From positions 1-53,642 of the IMG/VR virus record IMGVR_UViG_3300025098_000062: a stretch of DNA of 53,642 nucleotides; one strand, given 5' to 3'. The stretch comes from a virus. Of the stretch, positions 18,858 through 43,403 are shown one piece after another; position 1 is the first letter of the stretch; every line of letters starts with the position of its first letter. Under the pieces are notes generated by a model. It did not search any database and was not told where the DNA came from. It saw only the letters and a program-made list of their open reading frames with translations. The translations under genes were made by a program, and so were the position numbers.

Positions 18858-19500
18858 CTTCTTCTCCTTTAATACAAGTACCAACTATTCCTTTAGTTGA
18901 TTGCCATGTTAAATAAATTTTTAAATGTTTATGTTTTTGTCTTATCTTATGACATTGATTAACCCACCATTCATTATTAAATAATGATACGTGTACGTTT
19001 CTACCTTTATGTTTTCCTTCTGGAAAAGTTTTAATTGCAGCTGCACCACAGACATTTAAGAATACTATCTTAGTTGCATGACTATATATTTTATCCATAA
19101 CCCAATCTAAATCTTGAGAAGGTACATGTTCTAATACATCTGTAGAAATAACTGCATCATACTGTTTAGTAGGTGGTTCAGCATGTTCTAGATAAGCAGG
19201 GTCATATAAAGAAAATTCTGTAATACCTAAAGTATCTTGAATAGGTTCTTTTAAATCAGGATATTTACTTCCTTTATCTGCTTTTTTAAAATCTTTAGTA
19301 TATAGTAAACCTTTACCACATCCATAATCTAAAAAACTTTTAATTTTATTTTCATCAAATATGCTTTTAATAATATAAGTTAAAGGTATTAAACTTATAC
19401 CCATAAAAGCTCGTTCATCTTTATGCATTATTTTATATGCATCTATAAGTTCTTCGTATTCTTGTGAAGGAATAACATTTGGTTCTGGGTAATTACTCAT
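18811..19500 (-). CDS. Class I SAM-dependent methyltransferase
   Basis: 229 residues from ATG 19500, which has AAAGGA upstream; a longer frame to 19563 would only overlap the previous gene. Motif I is FLDYGCGKG at residues 56-64, and the post-motif region DAVISTDVLEHVP at 115-127 is typical of small-molecule methyltransferases. A C-terminal HVSLFNNEWW region may form the substrate pocket. It follows two glycosyltransferase genes, so methylation of a glycan or sugar is the best guess. Confidence 0.75.
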   Translation of the reverse strand: MSNYPEPNVIPSQEYEELIDAYKIMHKDERAFMGISLIPLTYIIKSIFDENKIKSFLDYGCGKGLLYTKDFKKADKGSKYPDLKEPIQDTLGITEFSLYDPAYLEHAEPPTKQYDAVISTDVLEHVPSQDLDWVMDKIYSHATKIVFLNVCGAAAIKTFPEGKHKGRNVHVSLFNNEWWVNQCHKIRQKHKHLKIYLTWQSTKGIVGTCIKGEEDGTTKSDRSSNKTAG

Positions 19501-21829
19501 TAAATGTCCTTTCAAATGAAGGTTGTTTTGCTCTTTGTTCTTGAGATAGATTCCATAGTTCACTTATTAAAGTATCTTTACCATGAAAGTTTATACACAT
19601 CTCTAAAACATTTTCATTAAATATCTTTTCACAATCTTGTGCCATAGCTAAAAGCTCACCAGTAGTCCAAAAGTTTTTATCTTTAACAGCTACTTTAAAA
19701 TACTTAGGTCTTGGCTCTTCATCATCAGCACCAGTTGTTTCTTTTTTCATATCATCTGTAGGTTCATTCATACAAGAATCATAGCCAAACAAATCAAACT
19801 GCCTGAATCCCATAGTATGCATAATACCAATAGCTCTCATTGCTGCACAAGTACCACCTGTAATTAATGTAGAACCTTTAGGTATACCTAGTTCTTCATT
19901 AAGTGTTACTTGATTATTTACTATACCTTTCTTTTGTTCTTCTGGGTCACGTAATGATTCTGTAAATGCATGCCATCCCCATATGTCTGCTTTCTTTTCT
20001 ATTAAATAATTAGTAACAGAAGGGTCAGTCATAGATGCAACAAAGAATTTAGTTGTTGGATGTATAGTTTTAAATAGTTCTTTTCTTACTACACCATGAG
20101 TACTTGTACCAGTAATAGGTCTAGGGTCTAGTACTATACAAGCCCAAGGTTGTATACCATGCTCTAATAATTTAGGATAAGAATGTTTAACAGCTATAAT
20201 TTTTTTCTTAGGATTATTGTATATAAAATCAGATAACTTTTTATAGTCTGTAAATGGACCACCTGAAACTACAATAGCACCTTGTTGATTCATTGGATAT
20301 TTAGATAACCATTTATCTTTATCTATAAGTTTCATGTTAGCTTTAATATTATTTCTAATATAATCTTTAGGAACACAATCTCTAGGATTAACTACAATAG
20401 GTACATTTAATAATTCTTTAGGTGGTTTATCTAAATCTTTACCATGTAATATTAAATTTAAATGTGTGTGTCCTCCTCCTCTAACTCTATCTCCTGAAGG
20501 AAGAACATACTTTTTTATTTCTTTATCTATAGATTTAAATACTTCATTAGTTCCTTTAAACTTTTCTTCTACATCATTCTTATCTTTATCAGCTAAGAAG
20601 TAATGGTCCATCATTACAATAGGTATATGTTTTAAACTATCGTAATCACTCTTAGCAGTAGGTATACTATTACCACCACCTATTAAAGCAAAGTCTATAG
20701 TAGGAAGAAACTTAAATAAATTTTCTTGTTTTAAAGTTTCTCTTGAGTTACCTTTAGTTAAAACAAAAGTAAATGTTTTCTTTTTTTCTTTCATTTTATC
20801 TTTAAACTCAGTTAATCTTTTGTCTACAGCAGCCATAGTATTATGTGCTTTAACATTAAACTCTTCTAAGTCTGTCTCTGTAGTCCCATCTTCAAACAAA
20901 TCATAACCATAGTATTCTACTTTATCTGTATATTCAAAAGCAGTTAAAGCCATTTCAATAGCACGTCCTGCATTCCATGTACCAACTTCTAAAAAGTTTT
21001 TAGGTTTATAGTGACGTATTACTTCAGCTAATTGTTTATATCTATTAGGCATTATGTCAGGACTTGTTTCTTCATTAGATAAATCAAATAATCTATTACC
21101 TTCTTTATCTCTTAATGGTAATGTAGAAGGATTAATATTACCATTAAAATGTAGAATCGTATCAGTAATACTTTCTAATGTAACAGCTTTTAATCCATGT
21201 GTTAAATATATATTCATTAATCTTTCTGTAATAAATGCATCATGCCATTCTCTATATTGAAATACTTCTCCTGCTACATATGCTTTTTTTAAATCCATAA
21301 GTAAATCATATGTTGCTTGATGATTTAAATTAAAAGCCATGACAGAAGAATCAATACCTTGAGTACCATCTTCATAACTACGTAATCCTCTATATGCTAT
21401 ATGTGCATCTTCAGGTAGCATCTTATCTAAGTCAGCTTCAGTTAATCTTTTATTTACATAAGAGTCTGCATCAATCCATATTAACCAACCTTTTTTATAC
21501 ACAGCTTCTGCATGTTTAGTTAATGCAAATACTTTATGACTATTTCTTTTAGCATCTAGTTTAATATTATATGTTATTTGTCCACCTTCTGTACCATCAT
21601 GTATAGAATGCATTTCTTTAAATGTATTATACTCTTTAATATCATTAATACTTTTATAAGAAATAGAATCTTTTTTAATTAATTTATAAGAGTCTATATT
21701 ACAATCGTGATAGTAGCAGGTTAAGTTTAATGCAGGTTCAAATTGATTGTCTATAGATTTAATTAAATGATGTCCTATATTCTTATAAATAGTTTCATTA
21801 AAAGAAGTTACAAAGTTGTACTTACTCAT
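19493..21829 (-). CDS. Three-domain glycosyltransferase / methyltransferase-like / MAF-like (DUF115) protein
   Basis: 778 residues. Residues 1-235: glycosyltransferase-like, with LIWIDADSY (D120, D122 as a DxD metal site) and a WHDAF-containing end. Residues about 265-470: methyltransferase-like, with NFLEVGTWNAGRA at 278-290 and a histidine-rich GGGHTHLN loop near 451. Residues about 495-770: resembles DUF115/MptE-like or flagellin-glycosylating MAF proteins, with GAIVVSGGPF at 517-526, IAVKHS, CIVLDPRP and STLITGGTCAAMRAIG. Such fusions build or transfer sugars on proteins or surfaces. Start is an ATGA overlap with the glycosyltransferase upstream. The substrate is unknown; virion glycosylation or masking of a host receptor are possible. 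Confidence 0.7.
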   Translation of the reverse strand: MSKYNFVTSFNETIYKNIGHHLIKSIDNQFEPALNLTCYYHDCNIDSYKLIKKDSISYKSINDIKEYNTFKEMHSIHDGTEGGQITYNIKLDAKRNSHKVFALTKHAEAVYKKGWLIWIDADSYVNKRLTEADLDKMLPEDAHIAYRGLRSYEDGTQGIDSSVMAFNLNHQATYDLLMDLKKAYVAGEVFQYREWHDAFITERLMNIYLTHGLKAVTLESITDTILHFNGNINPSTLPLRDKEGNRLFDLSNEETSPDIMPNRYKQLAEVIRHYKPKNFLEVGTWNAGRAIEMALTAFEYTDKVEYYGYDLFEDGTTETDLEEFNVKAHNTMAAVDKRLTEFKDKMKEKKKTFTFVLTKGNSRETLKQENLFKFLPTIDFALIGGGNSIPTAKSDYDSLKHIPIVMMDHYFLADKDKNDVEEKFKGTNEVFKSIDKEIKKYVLPSGDRVRGGGHTHLNLILHGKDLDKPPKELLNVPIVVNPRDCVPKDYIRNNIKANMKLIDKDKWLSKYPMNQQGAIVVSGGPFTDYKKLSDFIYNNPKKKIIAVKHSYPKLLEHGIQPWACIVLDPRPITGTSTHGVVRKELFKTIHPTTKFFVASMTDPSVTNYLIEKKADIWGWHAFTESLRDPEEQKKGIVNNQVTLNEELGIPKGSTLITGGTCAAMRAIGIMHTMGFRQFDLFGYDSCMNEPTDDMKKETTGADDEEPRPKYFKVAVKDKNFWTTGELLAMAQDCEKIFNENVLEMCINFHGKDTLISELWNLSQEQRAKQPSFERTFNE

Positions 21830-38604: not shown

Positions 38605-40158
38605 ATGCAACAAAATATCCATGATGAAGTAGCTAACAATGCAGTTTTAGACTATATGGAGCTACACCAGCATTTAAGCGAGAAAGTAGAAGCAGAAGCA
38701 AAGATAGATTTTATTACATTTGTACGTTTAATGGCTCCTAAACTCATCTCAGACTGGAAGATGGGAAAGCACATTGAGGTTATCTCAGAAAAACTAAGAC
38801 AATTAGAAAGTGGAGAGATAAAACGTCTCATGGTTTTTCTTCCTCCACGTTCCTCGAAGTCTGTAATCTGTTCTAAACTCTTTCCTGCTTGGTATATTGG
38901 TAGAAATCCAGAGCATGAAATCTTAACTGTGTCCCATAGTGACCAATTATCTAGTGATTTTGGTAGAAGTGTAAGAGATTTAGTAAATGAAGAGGACTTT
39001 TCTAAGATTTTTGGGGGAGTTTCGCTGCGTTCAGACGTAAGAGCTGCAGGAAAATGGAAAACAACGCAAGGTGGTACGTATTATGCAGCAGGTGTGAGGT
39101 CACAAATAGCAGGACGTGGTGCACATATTGCAATATTAGATGATGTGATGTCTGAAGAAGACTCATATTCAGAAGCAGGACGTAAATATGTTAAAGAATG
39201 GTACCCTGCTGGACTAAGAACACGTATTATGCCTAACGGAAGTATTCTTATCATAAATACTAGGTACCATTATGATGATTTGTGTGGGTGGTTGCTTAAA
39301 CAACAAGAAGATATGTCTGAATATTCTGTTATTCCTTGGGATGTAGTACGTATTCCTGCGTGGGTAGATGATGAAGCATCAAAACTATTAGATTTACCTG
39401 TAGGTTCTTCTTATTTTCCTGAATGGAAACCAGATGATGTACTTAAAATAGATGAAGAAGAAATAAGAGCTTCTAATGGTAGTAGATATTGGGAAGCTCT
39501 CTACATGCAGAACCCAACACCAGAAGAAGGTGGTCTAATTAAAAAGAATTGGTTACAATATTGGGAATATGAGGACCCTCCTACTTGTGATTTTATGATT
39601 CAAACATATGATACTGCATTTTCTACTAGTACTACAGCTGATTACAGTGTAATACAAACTTGGGGTATCTTTTCTATGTATGACCAAGATGAATTTGGAG
39701 ATGAAGGTTACCCTGCCAACCTAATCTTACTAGGAAACATACGAGGTAGGTTTGAGTATCCTATGCTAAGACGTATGGCTCAAGAATTATACAGTAAACA
39801 CATGCCAGATATTTGTATTGTAGAAAAAAAAGCATCAGGTCAATCTCTTATTCAAGATATGAGAAGAGCAGGACTACCAGTTAAAGAATATTTACCAGAT
39901 AGAGATAAAGTATCTAGGGTGTATGCAGCTTCACCTATGATTGAATCAGGTAGAGTATGGTTACCTAAAAATAAAAGATGGGCAGATGATTTAGTAACAG
40001 AATTATTACAGTTTCCTAACTCAGCCCATGATGACCAAGTAGATGCTTTAACTATGGCTATTCACTACATGAAAGAGTCATGGCATTTAGAACATCCTGA
40101 AGACCCATACTACGAAGATGAGCCAAGAAAAAAAAGAGTTGCGTACTGGAGAGTATGA
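38605..40158 (+). CDS. terL: Terminase large subunit
   Basis: 517 residues. ATPase: Walker A FLPPRSSKS (78-86) and Walker B HIAILDD with D179/D180, then INTRYHYDD coupling motif. Nuclease domain: IQTYDTAFSTSTTADYS (first Asp), CIVEKKASGQSL and SAHDDQVDA (late Asp pair). Full length for the family. It pumps DNA through the portal and cuts it. The small subunit lies far away on the other strand. TAGGAG precedes the ATG. Confidence 0.95.
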   Translation: MQQNIHDEVANNAVLDYMELHQHLSEKVEAEAKIDFITFVRLMAPKLISDWKMGKHIEVISEKLRQLESGEIKRLMVFLPPRSSKSVICSKLFPAWYIGRNPEHEILTVSHSDQLSSDFGRSVRDLVNEEDFSKIFGGVSLRSDVRAAGKWKTTQGGTYYAAGVRSQIAGRGAHIAILDDVMSEEDSYSEAGRKYVKEWYPAGLRTRIMPNGSILIINTRYHYDDLCGWLLKQQEDMSEYSVIPWDVVRIPAWVDDEASKLLDLPVGSSYFPEWKPDDVLKIDEEEIRASNGSRYWEALYMQNPTPEEGGLIKKNWLQYWEYEDPPTCDFMIQTYDTAFSTSTTADYSVIQTWGIFSMYDQDEFGDEGYPANLILLGNIRGRFEYPMLRRMAQELYSKHMPDICIVEKKASGQSLIQDMRRAGLPVKEYLPDRDKVSRVYAASPMIESGRVWLPKNKRWADDLVTELLQFPNSAHDDQVDALTMAIHYMKESWHLEHPEDPYYEDEPRKKRVAYWRV

Positions 40159-40191
40159 TGCTATACTGTAATTTAACCCAAGGAGTATCTT

Positions 40192-40275
40192 ATGAAAAAT
40201 AAATGGAAAAAGCCAGAAATAAAAGAAATTAGCGTAGGTTTAGAAATTAATTGTTATGCGTGTGCTGAAATCTAA
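40192..40275 (+). CDS. PqqA-like peptide (27 aa)
   Basis: CCAAGGAGTATCTT gives an excellent ribosome site at ATG 40192; the stop overlaps the portal start (TAATG). The peptide matches the PQQ precursor family layout: W5-x-K7-P8 near the N-terminus, then G16-L-E18-I-N-C-Y22, with the Glu and Tyr spaced as E-x3-Y, the pair that becomes PQQ. The tail is ACAEI. No PqqB, C, D or E gene is in the window. Either host PQQ enzymes process it, or the family resemblance hides another function. Placement between terL and portal is fixed by the overlap. Confidence 0.65.
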   Translation: MKNKWKKPEIKEISVGLEINCYACAEI

Positions 40276-42779
40276 TGGCAACTGAAAAAAATCCTTTTGA
40301 ACAAATGAGACCTGCAGCTGAAAATATTATTCAGTTAGGAGCTCAACAAGAACAACCACAGACAGGAGACCCAACCTTTGAGTTGGAAGATGATGGTGGT
40401 TTAACAGTTGACTTTTCTTCCACAGAAGAGAATACAGAGATGGGAGCATCAACTGAAATAGGTGAGTGGTATGGCAACTTAGCAGAAAACTTAGACCAAG
40501 ATTTATTAGAAGATATAGGTAATGATGTTTATGATAACTTTGTTGCAGATAAAGATTCTAGGTCTGAGTGGGAGTCTATGTTTGAAAGAGGTTTTGATTT
40601 ATTAGGTTTAAAAATACAAGATACAACAGAACCTTTTGAAGGAGCATGTACTGCAGTGCATCCATTATTAATTGAATCTGCAGTTAAGTTTCAATCAAAA
40701 GCATCACAAGAATTATTTCCATCTAAAGGACCAGTTAAAGCACAGATACTTGGTAAAGTAACTCCTGAAAAAGAAATACAGGCAAATAGAGTTCAAGACT
40801 TTATGAACTATCAAGTAACAGAACAGATGCCTGAATACTTTGATGAGTTTGAAAGAATGCTTTTTCATTTACCTTTATTAGGTTCAGCATTTAAAAAAAT
40901 ATATTATGATGAAACATTAAAGAGACCTGTATCTGAGTTTGTTCCTATAGACCAGTTTTATGTTTCTTACTATGCAAGTAATTTAAGTAAAGCAGAAAGA
41001 TACACACATTTAATTTATCGTAATCCAGTAGATTTAGCAAAAGAAATACGTAATGAAGTATACTTAGATTTAGATTTACCTGACCCACAAAATCCAACAC
41101 AAACTACATTAGCAGAAAAGATGGATACTATACTTGGTTTATCTCCAAGTTCAGACATTGACCCACAATATGTATTATTAGAACAACATTGTTTTTTAGA
41201 TATTAAAGATTCAGAAAGTGAAGAAGGAGAATCTTGTCCTTACATTGTAACAATAGAAGAACAATCTAGAAAAGTTTTAGGTATTAGAAGAAACTGGAAA
41301 CCTACAGATAAAACTAAAACTAAGAATTTACATTTTGTACATTATCGTTTTGTACCAGGATTTAGTTTCTATGGTTTAGGACTAATGCATTTCTTAGGTA
41401 ACATAACCATGACTGCAACTGCAGCTATGAGAAGTTTAGTTGATGCAGGACAATTCGCTAACCTTCCAGGTGGTTTTAAAGCCAAGGGTGTAAGAATGGT
41501 TGGTGACAATGAACCTATAGCTCCAGGAGAGTTTAAAGAAGTAGAAGCACTAGGTACAGATTTATCTAAAGCTATTGTGCCTTTACCTTATAAAGAACCT
41601 TCAGGAACTTTATTTCAAATGCTAGGTTTTATGACTGCAGCAGGACAGAAGTTTGCAGATAGTACAGAACAAGTAATTGCAGATGGTTCTAACTATGGAC
41701 CAGTAGGAACAACAATGGCATTACTAGAAGCTTCAAGTAAGTTTTTTACTGCAATACATAAACGATTACATAAATCACAGAAAGATGAGTTTAGAATCTT
41801 AGCTCAAATAGACCACGACTACTTACCAGAAGAATATCCTTATGATGTTCCTATGGCAGAAAGAAATATTTTTAAAGAAGACTTTAATGGTAAAGTAGAT
41901 ATTATACCTGTTAGTGACCCTAATATTCCTTCTAATGCTCACAGACTTATGTTAGCTCAAATGGCATTACAGATGGCACAACAATCTCCACCAGGAATGT
42001 TTAACTTAGAAGCATTAAATAGAACAATATTAAATGCATCTAATATTCCTAACGTAGATGAAATACTACCACCTAAAGTAGAACCACAAGAGATGGACCC
42101 AGTATCAGATATAATGGCTGCATCTAAAGGAATGCCTATTGCAGCATTTCCAGGACAAGACCATGAGTCACATATTACTATAAAGATGGCATATTTAAAT
42201 GACCCTCAAAATGGTGCCAATCCTATTATGGCAAAGATACAACCTATCTTAGCATCTAATATACAAGAACATTCTGTAATGAAATATCAAGAACAAATTA
42301 ATGGTATGACACAGCAGAAGTTACAAACTAAAGTATCTCCAGAGCAAGCACAGAATCCTGCAGTAGTACAAGGAGCAATGGCAGAAGCTGCTCAAGAAGT
42401 ATTAAATGCAAATATGGCAATGGGTAAAGTAGAATCTCCTGAACAACAAATGGTAGATTTAGAAAAACAAAAAGTATTATTAGAACAAAAGAAATTAGAA
42501 TTAAAAGCTATGCAAGATAATGCTAAAGCAGTACTAGAAGCTCAGAAGTTAGAAATGGAGCAAAGTGAAATAATGTTAAAAGTTGCTGACCAAGCACAAA
42601 CAAAACAATTTAAAGAACAAAAAGCTCAAGCTGATAGATTATCTAAACAACAAATAAAAGCTTTAGACAATTTAATGAATATGTCCATTGAAGAAAAGAA
42701 ACAAGAAACAGAACAAGATAAGATAACAAGTAAAGAAAAGATGAAAGCAGCTGAACTTGCAACTAAGCTTGCTACATAA
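40275..42779 (+). CDS. Portal protein
   Basis: 834 residues after terL. EWESMFERGFDLLGLKIQD, then GACTAVHPLLIESAVKFQSK, RMLFHLPLLGSAFKKIYYD and EFVPIDQFYVSYYA fit the portal type of large short-tailed marine phages. C-terminal 150 residues are a Q/K/E/M-rich coiled coil (LEKQKVLLEQKKLELKAMQD), which would form the barrel. It builds the dodecameric DNA gate and meets terminase and the adaptor proteins. Confidence 0.88.
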   Translation: MATEKNPFEQMRPAAENIIQLGAQQEQPQTGDPTFELEDDGGLTVDFSSTEENTEMGASTEIGEWYGNLAENLDQDLLEDIGNDVYDNFVADKDSRSEWESMFERGFDLLGLKIQDTTEPFEGACTAVHPLLIESAVKFQSKASQELFPSKGPVKAQILGKVTPEKEIQANRVQDFMNYQVTEQMPEYFDEFERMLFHLPLLGSAFKKIYYDETLKRPVSEFVPIDQFYVSYYASNLSKAERYTHLIYRNPVDLAKEIRNEVYLDLDLPDPQNPTQTTLAEKMDTILGLSPSSDIDPQYVLLEQHCFLDIKDSESEEGESCPYIVTIEEQSRKVLGIRRNWKPTDKTKTKNLHFVHYRFVPGFSFYGLGLMHFLGNITMTATAAMRSLVDAGQFANLPGGFKAKGVRMVGDNEPIAPGEFKEVEALGTDLSKAIVPLPYKEPSGTLFQMLGFMTAAGQKFADSTEQVIADGSNYGPVGTTMALLEASSKFFTAIHKRLHKSQKDEFRILAQIDHDYLPEEYPYDVPMAERNIFKEDFNGKVDIIPVSDPNIPSNAHRLMLAQMALQMAQQSPPGMFNLEALNRTILNASNIPNVDEILPPKVEPQEMDPVSDIMAASKGMPIAAFPGQDHESHITIKMAYLNDPQNGANPIMAKIQPILASNIQEHSVMKYQEQINGMTQQKLQTKVSPEQAQNPAVVQGAMAEAAQEVLNANMAMGKVESPEQQMVDLEKQKVLLEQKKLELKAMQDNAKAVLEAQKLEMEQSEIMLKVADQAQTKQFKEQKAQADRLSKQQIKALDNLMNMSIEEKKQETEQDKITSKEKMKAAELATKLAT

Positions 42780-42974: not shown

Positions 42975-43403
42975 ATGCAACAAGTACACGTAGGAAAAGC
43001 AGTAAAGAATGATGCTTGGATAACAAAGAACGAACAGGAAGACCCAGATATTTTACCTGAATTACCAGGTTATCATGTTTTAGTTAGACCTGTAAGTATA
43101 AAACAAGAGACTAAAGGTGGAATTCTATTGCCAGATTCTACTAGAGAAGATATGGCATACTTAACGACAGTAGGTAAAGTAGTTGCAATAGGTGACTTAG
43201 CTTATGCAGATGAAGAAAAATTTAATAAAGGACCTTGGTGTAAGATAGATGATTATGTATGCTATGGTAAACATACAGGTCAAAAAATAAAATATAAAGG
43301 TATTAAATATATTTTATTATATGATGACCAAATAATTATGAGAGTAGAAAGTCCTAAGACTTTAGACCCAACATTTAATTTATCTGCTGCTAGTTCAAAT
43401 TAA
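42975..43403 (+). CDS. GroES-like co-chaperonin
   Basis: 142 residues. LPGYHVLVRPVSIKQETKGG then ILLPDSTRED is the Cpn10 roof/mobile-loop pattern, followed by TVGKVVAIGDLAY, GPWCKIDDYVCYGKHTGQKI and a final ILLYDDQIIMRV beta strand. It would cap host GroEL and favour folding of the capsid protein encoded 2 kb downstream, as gp31 does in T4. Longer than host GroES by about 45 residues, mainly at the N-terminus. No GroEL in the window. Confidence 0.85.
   Translation: MQQVHVGKAVKNDAWITKNEQEDPDILPELPGYHVLVRPVSIKQETKGGILLPDSTREDMAYLTTVGKVVAIGDLAYADEEKFNKGPWCKIDDYVCYGKHTGQKIKYKGIKYILLYDDQIIMRVESPKTLDPTFNLSAASSN

Follow-up and report, generated by a model that had tools for sequence, protein, structure and literature searches.

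A pqqA precursor gene carried without pqqB-E between the terminase and portal genes of a virus

Results

The locus and its gene order

The window, that is, the whole stretch of DNA analysed here, corresponds to one IMG/VR record of a marine phage, 53.6 kb long with 31.7% G+C. Besides terL and portal, it encodes a GroES-like protein, a DNA polymerase of family A, a DUF932 protein and a ribonucleotide reductase of the B12 type. On the plus strand, the large terminase subunit gene terL (38605..40158; PF17289 and PF03237) is directly followed by a small pqqA gene (40192..40275) and this by the portal protein gene (40275..42779; tblastn to annotated phage portals, e.g. OR003939.1, 44%), whose product is 42-44% identical to those of phages DSL-LC04, 023Pt_psg01 and Pelagibacter phage HTVC027P. 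The pqqA product, MKNKWKKPEIKEISVGLEINCYACAEI, is a 27-aa PqqA precursor peptide with the motifs W5-K-K-P8 and G16-L-E18-I-N-C-Y22, in which E18 and Y22 form the predicted cross-linked pair. A ribosome-binding site, AAGGAG (40180..40185, plus strand), lies 6 nt ahead of the ATG and is also found by alignment in the relatives L002, L004, L005 and L008. At the other end, the pqqA stop (TAA, 40273-40275) and the portal start (ATG, 40275-40277) share one base in a plus-strand TAATG (40273..40277), as the alignment of relatives with and without pqqA confirms. An earlier note, made from the letters of this DNA, had described the reading frame, its W-x-K-P and G-L-E-x3-Y motifs with E18 and Y22, its ribosome site and its position overlapping the portal start, all of which are present in the sequence.

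Upstream, the end of terL holds a possible but weak promoter (TTGCGT-17-TATACT, 40139..40167, plus strand), inferred from the sequence and kept in L006, a relative without pqqA, with TTGCAT-17-TATAAT in L012; it falls below the threshold of a promoter scan that found no sigma-70 promoter upstream of pqqA. Elsewhere in the window, a GroES-like co-chaperonin gene (Cpn10, 42975-43403) stands between portal and the next structural genes, and a 778-aa protein with an MptE-like domain (19493-21829) adjoins a 262-aa gene and a methyltransferase gene; relatives of this 778-aa protein adjoin pqqA in three other loci (L180, L255 and L271).

The profile search that the earlier note had proposed gave matches above both curated cut-offs, with 35.9 bits for TIGR02107 (cut-off 20, E=4.7e-9, whole model covered) and 29.4 bits for PF08042 (cut-off 21.1, E=7.6e-7), while TIGR02107 was positive in 0/14 control genomes. 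Given these scores and controls, the PqqA likeness of the peptide is not due to chance. The peptide also has the E-x3-Y spacing of the residues that become PQQ (E18/Y22) and, as expected of a PqqA of some 20-30 residues, is encoded as a separate short peptide that has a start of its own (27 aa, a ribosome site, and start and stop conserved). Adjacency to pqqB-E, usual but not obligatory since orphan copies exist, is lacking in the viral copies. No family in PHROGs and no entry in the PDB matched the window peptide, and it was rejected as a sactipeptide precursor (StsA, NF045558), with 14.1 bits against a cut-off of 42.

Optional cargo at several positions

The gene occupies the identical position between terL and portal in the TerL relatives L002-L005 and L008-L010, and it is exactly pqqA that is absent from L006 and L007, whose TerL is 98% identical to that of the window. 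The gap between terL and portal measures 31 bases in these two relatives versus 120 in the window, which indicates that pqqA is optional cargo. In other relatives, the gene is found between portal and a 63-aa gene (P63)/GroES, or beside glycosyltransferase-like genes. In all, 15 of the 45 records of the window lineage were positive for PqqA, and on a TerL tree of 37 sequences the presence or absence of pqqA requires 8 changes, and position plus presence 9.

In L006 and L007 the portal gene has its own ribosome site, AGGAG (AGGAGAACTTATG), which is absent in the window and makes coupling of portal translation to pqqA probable there; as judged from the aligned sequences, pqqA has taken over the translation start of the portal. 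The TAATG overlap and the lost ribosome site are what would be expected if the small frame were a leader whose translation sets the level of portal protein, its PqqA likeness being incidental. We regard such a leader as extremely improbable, since the profile scores exclude a chance likeness, and the same peptide occurs elsewhere in relatives (at the portal to P63/GroES junction and beside the glycosyltransferase-like genes) as well as in unrelated phages. The coupling may rather be a side effect of where pqqA was placed.

Spread and conservation of viral pqqA

Scans of IMG/VR with degenerate DNA patterns detected pqqA in at least 119-120 viral contigs per scan, and the true numbers are therefore higher. 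Among the matches listed there are three classes of viral peptide, with the cores VGLEINCYACAE (that of the window), VGLEINSYACAE and GFEVTMYVMNK. Of 137 first-class loci among the matches listed, 88 share genes with the window lineage and make up one component, the remaining ones being distributed over 14 further components, several of which are short fragments. The peptide is thus also present in phages unrelated to the window lineage. Neither the window peptide nor its MWKSPVV form gave a tblastn match to the window's peptide class among 50,697 phage records. A PqqA-like match of 18 residues (78%) was seen in a record named Acinetobacter phage MD-2021a (CAKLQF020000010.1, 108210-108263).

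Glu and Tyr are kept in all 256 distinct viral DNA sequences (160 peptides) among the matches listed. The expression used for collecting this set fixes W, P and G, and the scan patterns fix parts of the core, so that the unbiased tests are the scan with a free Glu codon, the scan with Cys-Tyr free and the TerL-based set. With the Glu codon free, only Glu appeared among the matches listed (at least 119), and with Cys-Tyr free, only CY or SY (also at least 119 matches listed). Conservation is weaker at the second Glu, that of the C-terminal AE, where the variants ACAIL, ACADI and ACAGL occur. Taken over the whole peptide, the dN/dS ratios of the three classes are 0.126, 0.070 and 0.123; they drop to 0.021, 0.024 and 0.062 in the C-terminal half, where synonymous differences are near saturation. 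In many phages, purifying selection on pqqA is strong, and with its repeated gain or loss on the TerL tree and its place in bona fide phage genomes between terL and portal, the gene shows the features of an auxiliary gene. The examination of homologues beside terL and portal, which the earlier note had suggested, found E, Y, W and P all conserved, and none of the homologues found had lost E or Y or was frameshifted, the outcome that would have spoken against PqqA.

The third class (GFEVTMYVMNK) is present in nine cultured Methylophilales phages, namely Venkman EXVC282S, P19250A, MEP301, MEP401, MEP402 and four Melnitz phages. These nine are the carriers found among sequences, and NCBI taxonomy names further Methylophilales phages. 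None of the nine copies is annotated as PqqA, and four of the phages (Venkman, P19250A, MEP301 and MEP401) have an unannotated gap where the gene lies; in five records the peptide is intact, each time with a likely ribosome site. In Melnitz EXVC044M (MZ577097.1, 76100-76205; L474:2461-2566), the annotation places a small hypothetical CDS on the other strand from pqqA, which is probably a mis-call that hides the gene. In the papers on MEP301, MEP401/402, Venkman and Melnitz, PQQ is absent, except as a medium supplement in one of them.

A precursor without processing enzymes

The earlier note saw no PQQ-maturation enzyme, and our searches agree, as the window record contains no match to PqqE and none to a PQQ dehydrogenase. 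Around 200 viral loci showed no pqqB-E at E<=1e-3, and PqqE was above its cut-off in 0/91 whole virus records (41 + 50), nearly all of them pqqA-bearing and many of them fragments. Two sub-threshold PqqE matches reached 27.7-27.8 bits, the cut-off being 381, and resemble radical SAM proteins of other kinds. One likely radical SAM protein of this kind (L285, G076:11921-12292; 27.8 bits to PqqE, far below the cut-off) is encoded on the pqqA-bearing contig of L274. A PQQ alcohol dehydrogenase was above cut-off in only 1/91 virus records, so that carrying the precursor only is the rule in these viruses. The single exception, the 72 kb record IMGVR_UViG_3300025120_009955 (G125, also L394), carries both pqqA and a 628-aa frame (G125:C1:34049-35731) for a PQQ-dependent alcohol dehydrogenase (608 bits with neighbours), the same combination reported for the Lake Baikal phage VP_266.

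A viral precursor without processing enzymes of its own, but with its whole core conserved, could also act as a decoy or inhibitor that would occupy host PqqD/PqqE, lower PQQ synthesis and close a competing host pathway. Such a decoy could dispense with the reactive Glu and Tyr, yet neither residue varies in the viral sequences among the matches listed, and a dehydrogenase dependent on PQQ, as carried by G125 and VP_266, would make little sense in a virus that lowers this cofactor. The decoy is for these reasons improbable.

Bacteria sharing the peptide core

When 84,980 species genomes of bacteria and archaea were scanned with the core pattern of the window's peptide class, 71 stretches matched. 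Almost all of them bear the title of Alphaproteobacteria or of an order in that class, and 56 of these 71 cellular loci contain pqqB-E genes. One of them, from Rhodospirillaceae AG-422-C09 (L140), has pqqABCDE, with PqqB, C, D and E above cut-off by NCBIfam. Bacteria sharing the window's peptide core therefore encode the pqqB-E genes that the earlier note had advised looking for in likely hosts. Among the core-sharing bacterial genomes, 17/18 scored for PqqA and 12/18 had a PQQ alcohol dehydrogenase above cut-off. For several viral peptides there is a cellular copy that agrees in every letter, e.g. MWKSPVVKEVAVGLEINCYACAEI, shared by viral L172 and chromosomal L100. An additional, orphan pqqA is present in some genomes (L100 with L136; L107 with L159), and orphan cellular copies apart from pqqB-E occur in small marine alphaproteobacterial genomes (L100, L107, L110 and L167), that of L100 being flanked by genes for a LysR regulator and an EmrB-type transporter. 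The window phage may be tied to marine Alphaproteobacteria, judging from its peptide type and base composition; a tRNA search for a host hint found none in the window. Among open-licence papers, none was found on PQQ in AEGEAN-169.

The occurrence of the NCYACAE core in bacterial pqqABCDE operons also bears on a further alternative, in which the peptide would be the substrate of another radical-SAM/RiPP pathway, such as a sactipeptide using its two cysteines, and have no part in PQQ. The paired cysteines of NCYAC, the weak StsA match (E=0.034) and the other radical SAM protein on the contig of L274 are in line with it. Besides sharing its core with those operons, however, the viral family includes the GFEVTMYVMNK class, which usually lacks the paired cysteine and keeps E and Y, making a different RiPP very improbable.

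Discussion

In PQQ synthesis, PqqD binds PqqA and PqqE links its Glu to its Tyr, a protease together with PqqB and PqqC finishes PQQ, and one PqqA peptide is spent per PQQ. The reading that we favour, with a probability of roughly 0.78, is that this genuine pqqA gene would serve the phage as an auxiliary metabolic gene feeding the host PQQ pathway during infection. This reading draws on the conservation of E and Y, the purifying selection, the absence of viral processing genes and the presence of pqqB-E in bacteria with the same peptide. Among the three functions offered by the earlier note, a substrate for host enzymes is thus better supported than a decoy or another modification.

The pathway would start with the synthesis of the peptide together with the head genes after infection. 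Host PqqD would bind the viral peptide, host PqqE would cross-link E18 and Y22, and a host protease, PqqB and PqqC would cut and oxidise the product to PQQ. Since one PqqA is spent per PQQ and host transcripts are lost during infection, the supplied precursor would keep or raise PQQ in the infected cell. Finally, the maintained PQQ would keep periplasmic PQQ-dependent alcohol/methanol dehydrogenases of the host running, whose activity would give electrons and carbon to phage replication. The dehydrogenase that G125 carries beside pqqA, as VP_266 does, counts in favour of an auxiliary metabolic role, whereas the existence of close relatives without pqqA (L006 and L007) counts against it. As for the dose of the precursor, one methylotroph has five copies of pqqA, of which three stand alone (orphan pqqA3-5; PMC9851590). 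In acetic acid bacteria, PQQ rises with a higher pqq gene dose, partial or whole, and a higher dose of pqqA alone is among those that change its level, according to PMC7936290 and works cited there.

A rise in PQQ could also serve superinfection exclusion, if leaked PQQ filled the importer PqqU, the receptor of some phages, and so blocked rivals or re-adsorption to debris. PQQ does block infection by a PqqU-targeting coliphage (PMC12124388), but that known case concerns E. coli, a non-maker of PQQ, and nothing ties the present phages or their hosts to PqqU. As exclusion would depend on a rise in PQQ just as the auxiliary metabolic role does, we consider it quite improbable.

On a wider scale, it seems rather probable from the sequences that precursor-only boosting of the cofactor is widespread, and that unrelated phages of PQQ-making or methylotrophic marine and freshwater bacteria have independently come to carry a pqqA matched to the host type as their only PQQ gene, the peptide being the consumed and limiting part. 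Such genes would have been missed since frames of 23-27 codons are rarely called. If so, phages steer a redox cofactor of the host via its ribosomal precursor alone, pqqA is about the smallest auxiliary metabolic gene conceivable, and the hosts so steered, abundant methylotrophs and marine Alphaproteobacteria, are oxidisers of methanol and other alcohols. The cultured pairs that carry pqqA (Venkman/H5P1, MEP401/FZCC0133 and P19250A/IMCC19250) make the limitation of PQQ by PqqA in nature testable. Moreover, pqqA offers a host clue for unassigned viruses, and its history indicates that functional genes as small as this escape annotation pipelines.

A last point is the relation of viral pqqA to systems already described. 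The PqqA family itself is known, and viral PqqA has two earlier mentions, a fairly detailed one (PMC7678222) and a list entry (PMC13188868). No report was found in the open-licence literature of a solitary gene in marine viruses of the alphaproteobacterial type, of its spread or of its presence in cultured methylophages; what appears to be new is that the gene stands alone, how far it has spread and that it was overlooked in isolates. The window copy resembles bacterial PqqA (TIGR02107/PF08042) in length, W-x-x-P, G-x-E-x3-Y and full-length profile match, and shares the VGLEINCYACAE core with marine Alphaproteobacteria that have pqqABCDE, but it heads a block of phage structural genes without pqqB-E. 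Orphan bacterial copies (pqqA3-5 of PMC9851590; L100, L107 and L110) are likewise extra pqqA genes off the operon that add precursor, although they are chromosomal and lie beside cellular genes. In viral contigs, pqqA was called in a list of P-cycling genes from reservoir sediment (PMC13188868), where pqqA/pqqD/pqqE form an entry read as phosphate solubilisation and the peptide is not analysed in the main text. A viral precedent is the methylophage VP_266 from Lake Baikal (Coutinho et al. 2020, PMC7678222), whose PqqA was also read as an auxiliary metabolic gene. VP_266 has a methanol dehydrogenase and a methylotroph link, whereas the window has no dehydrogenase and a peptide of the alphaproteobacterial class.
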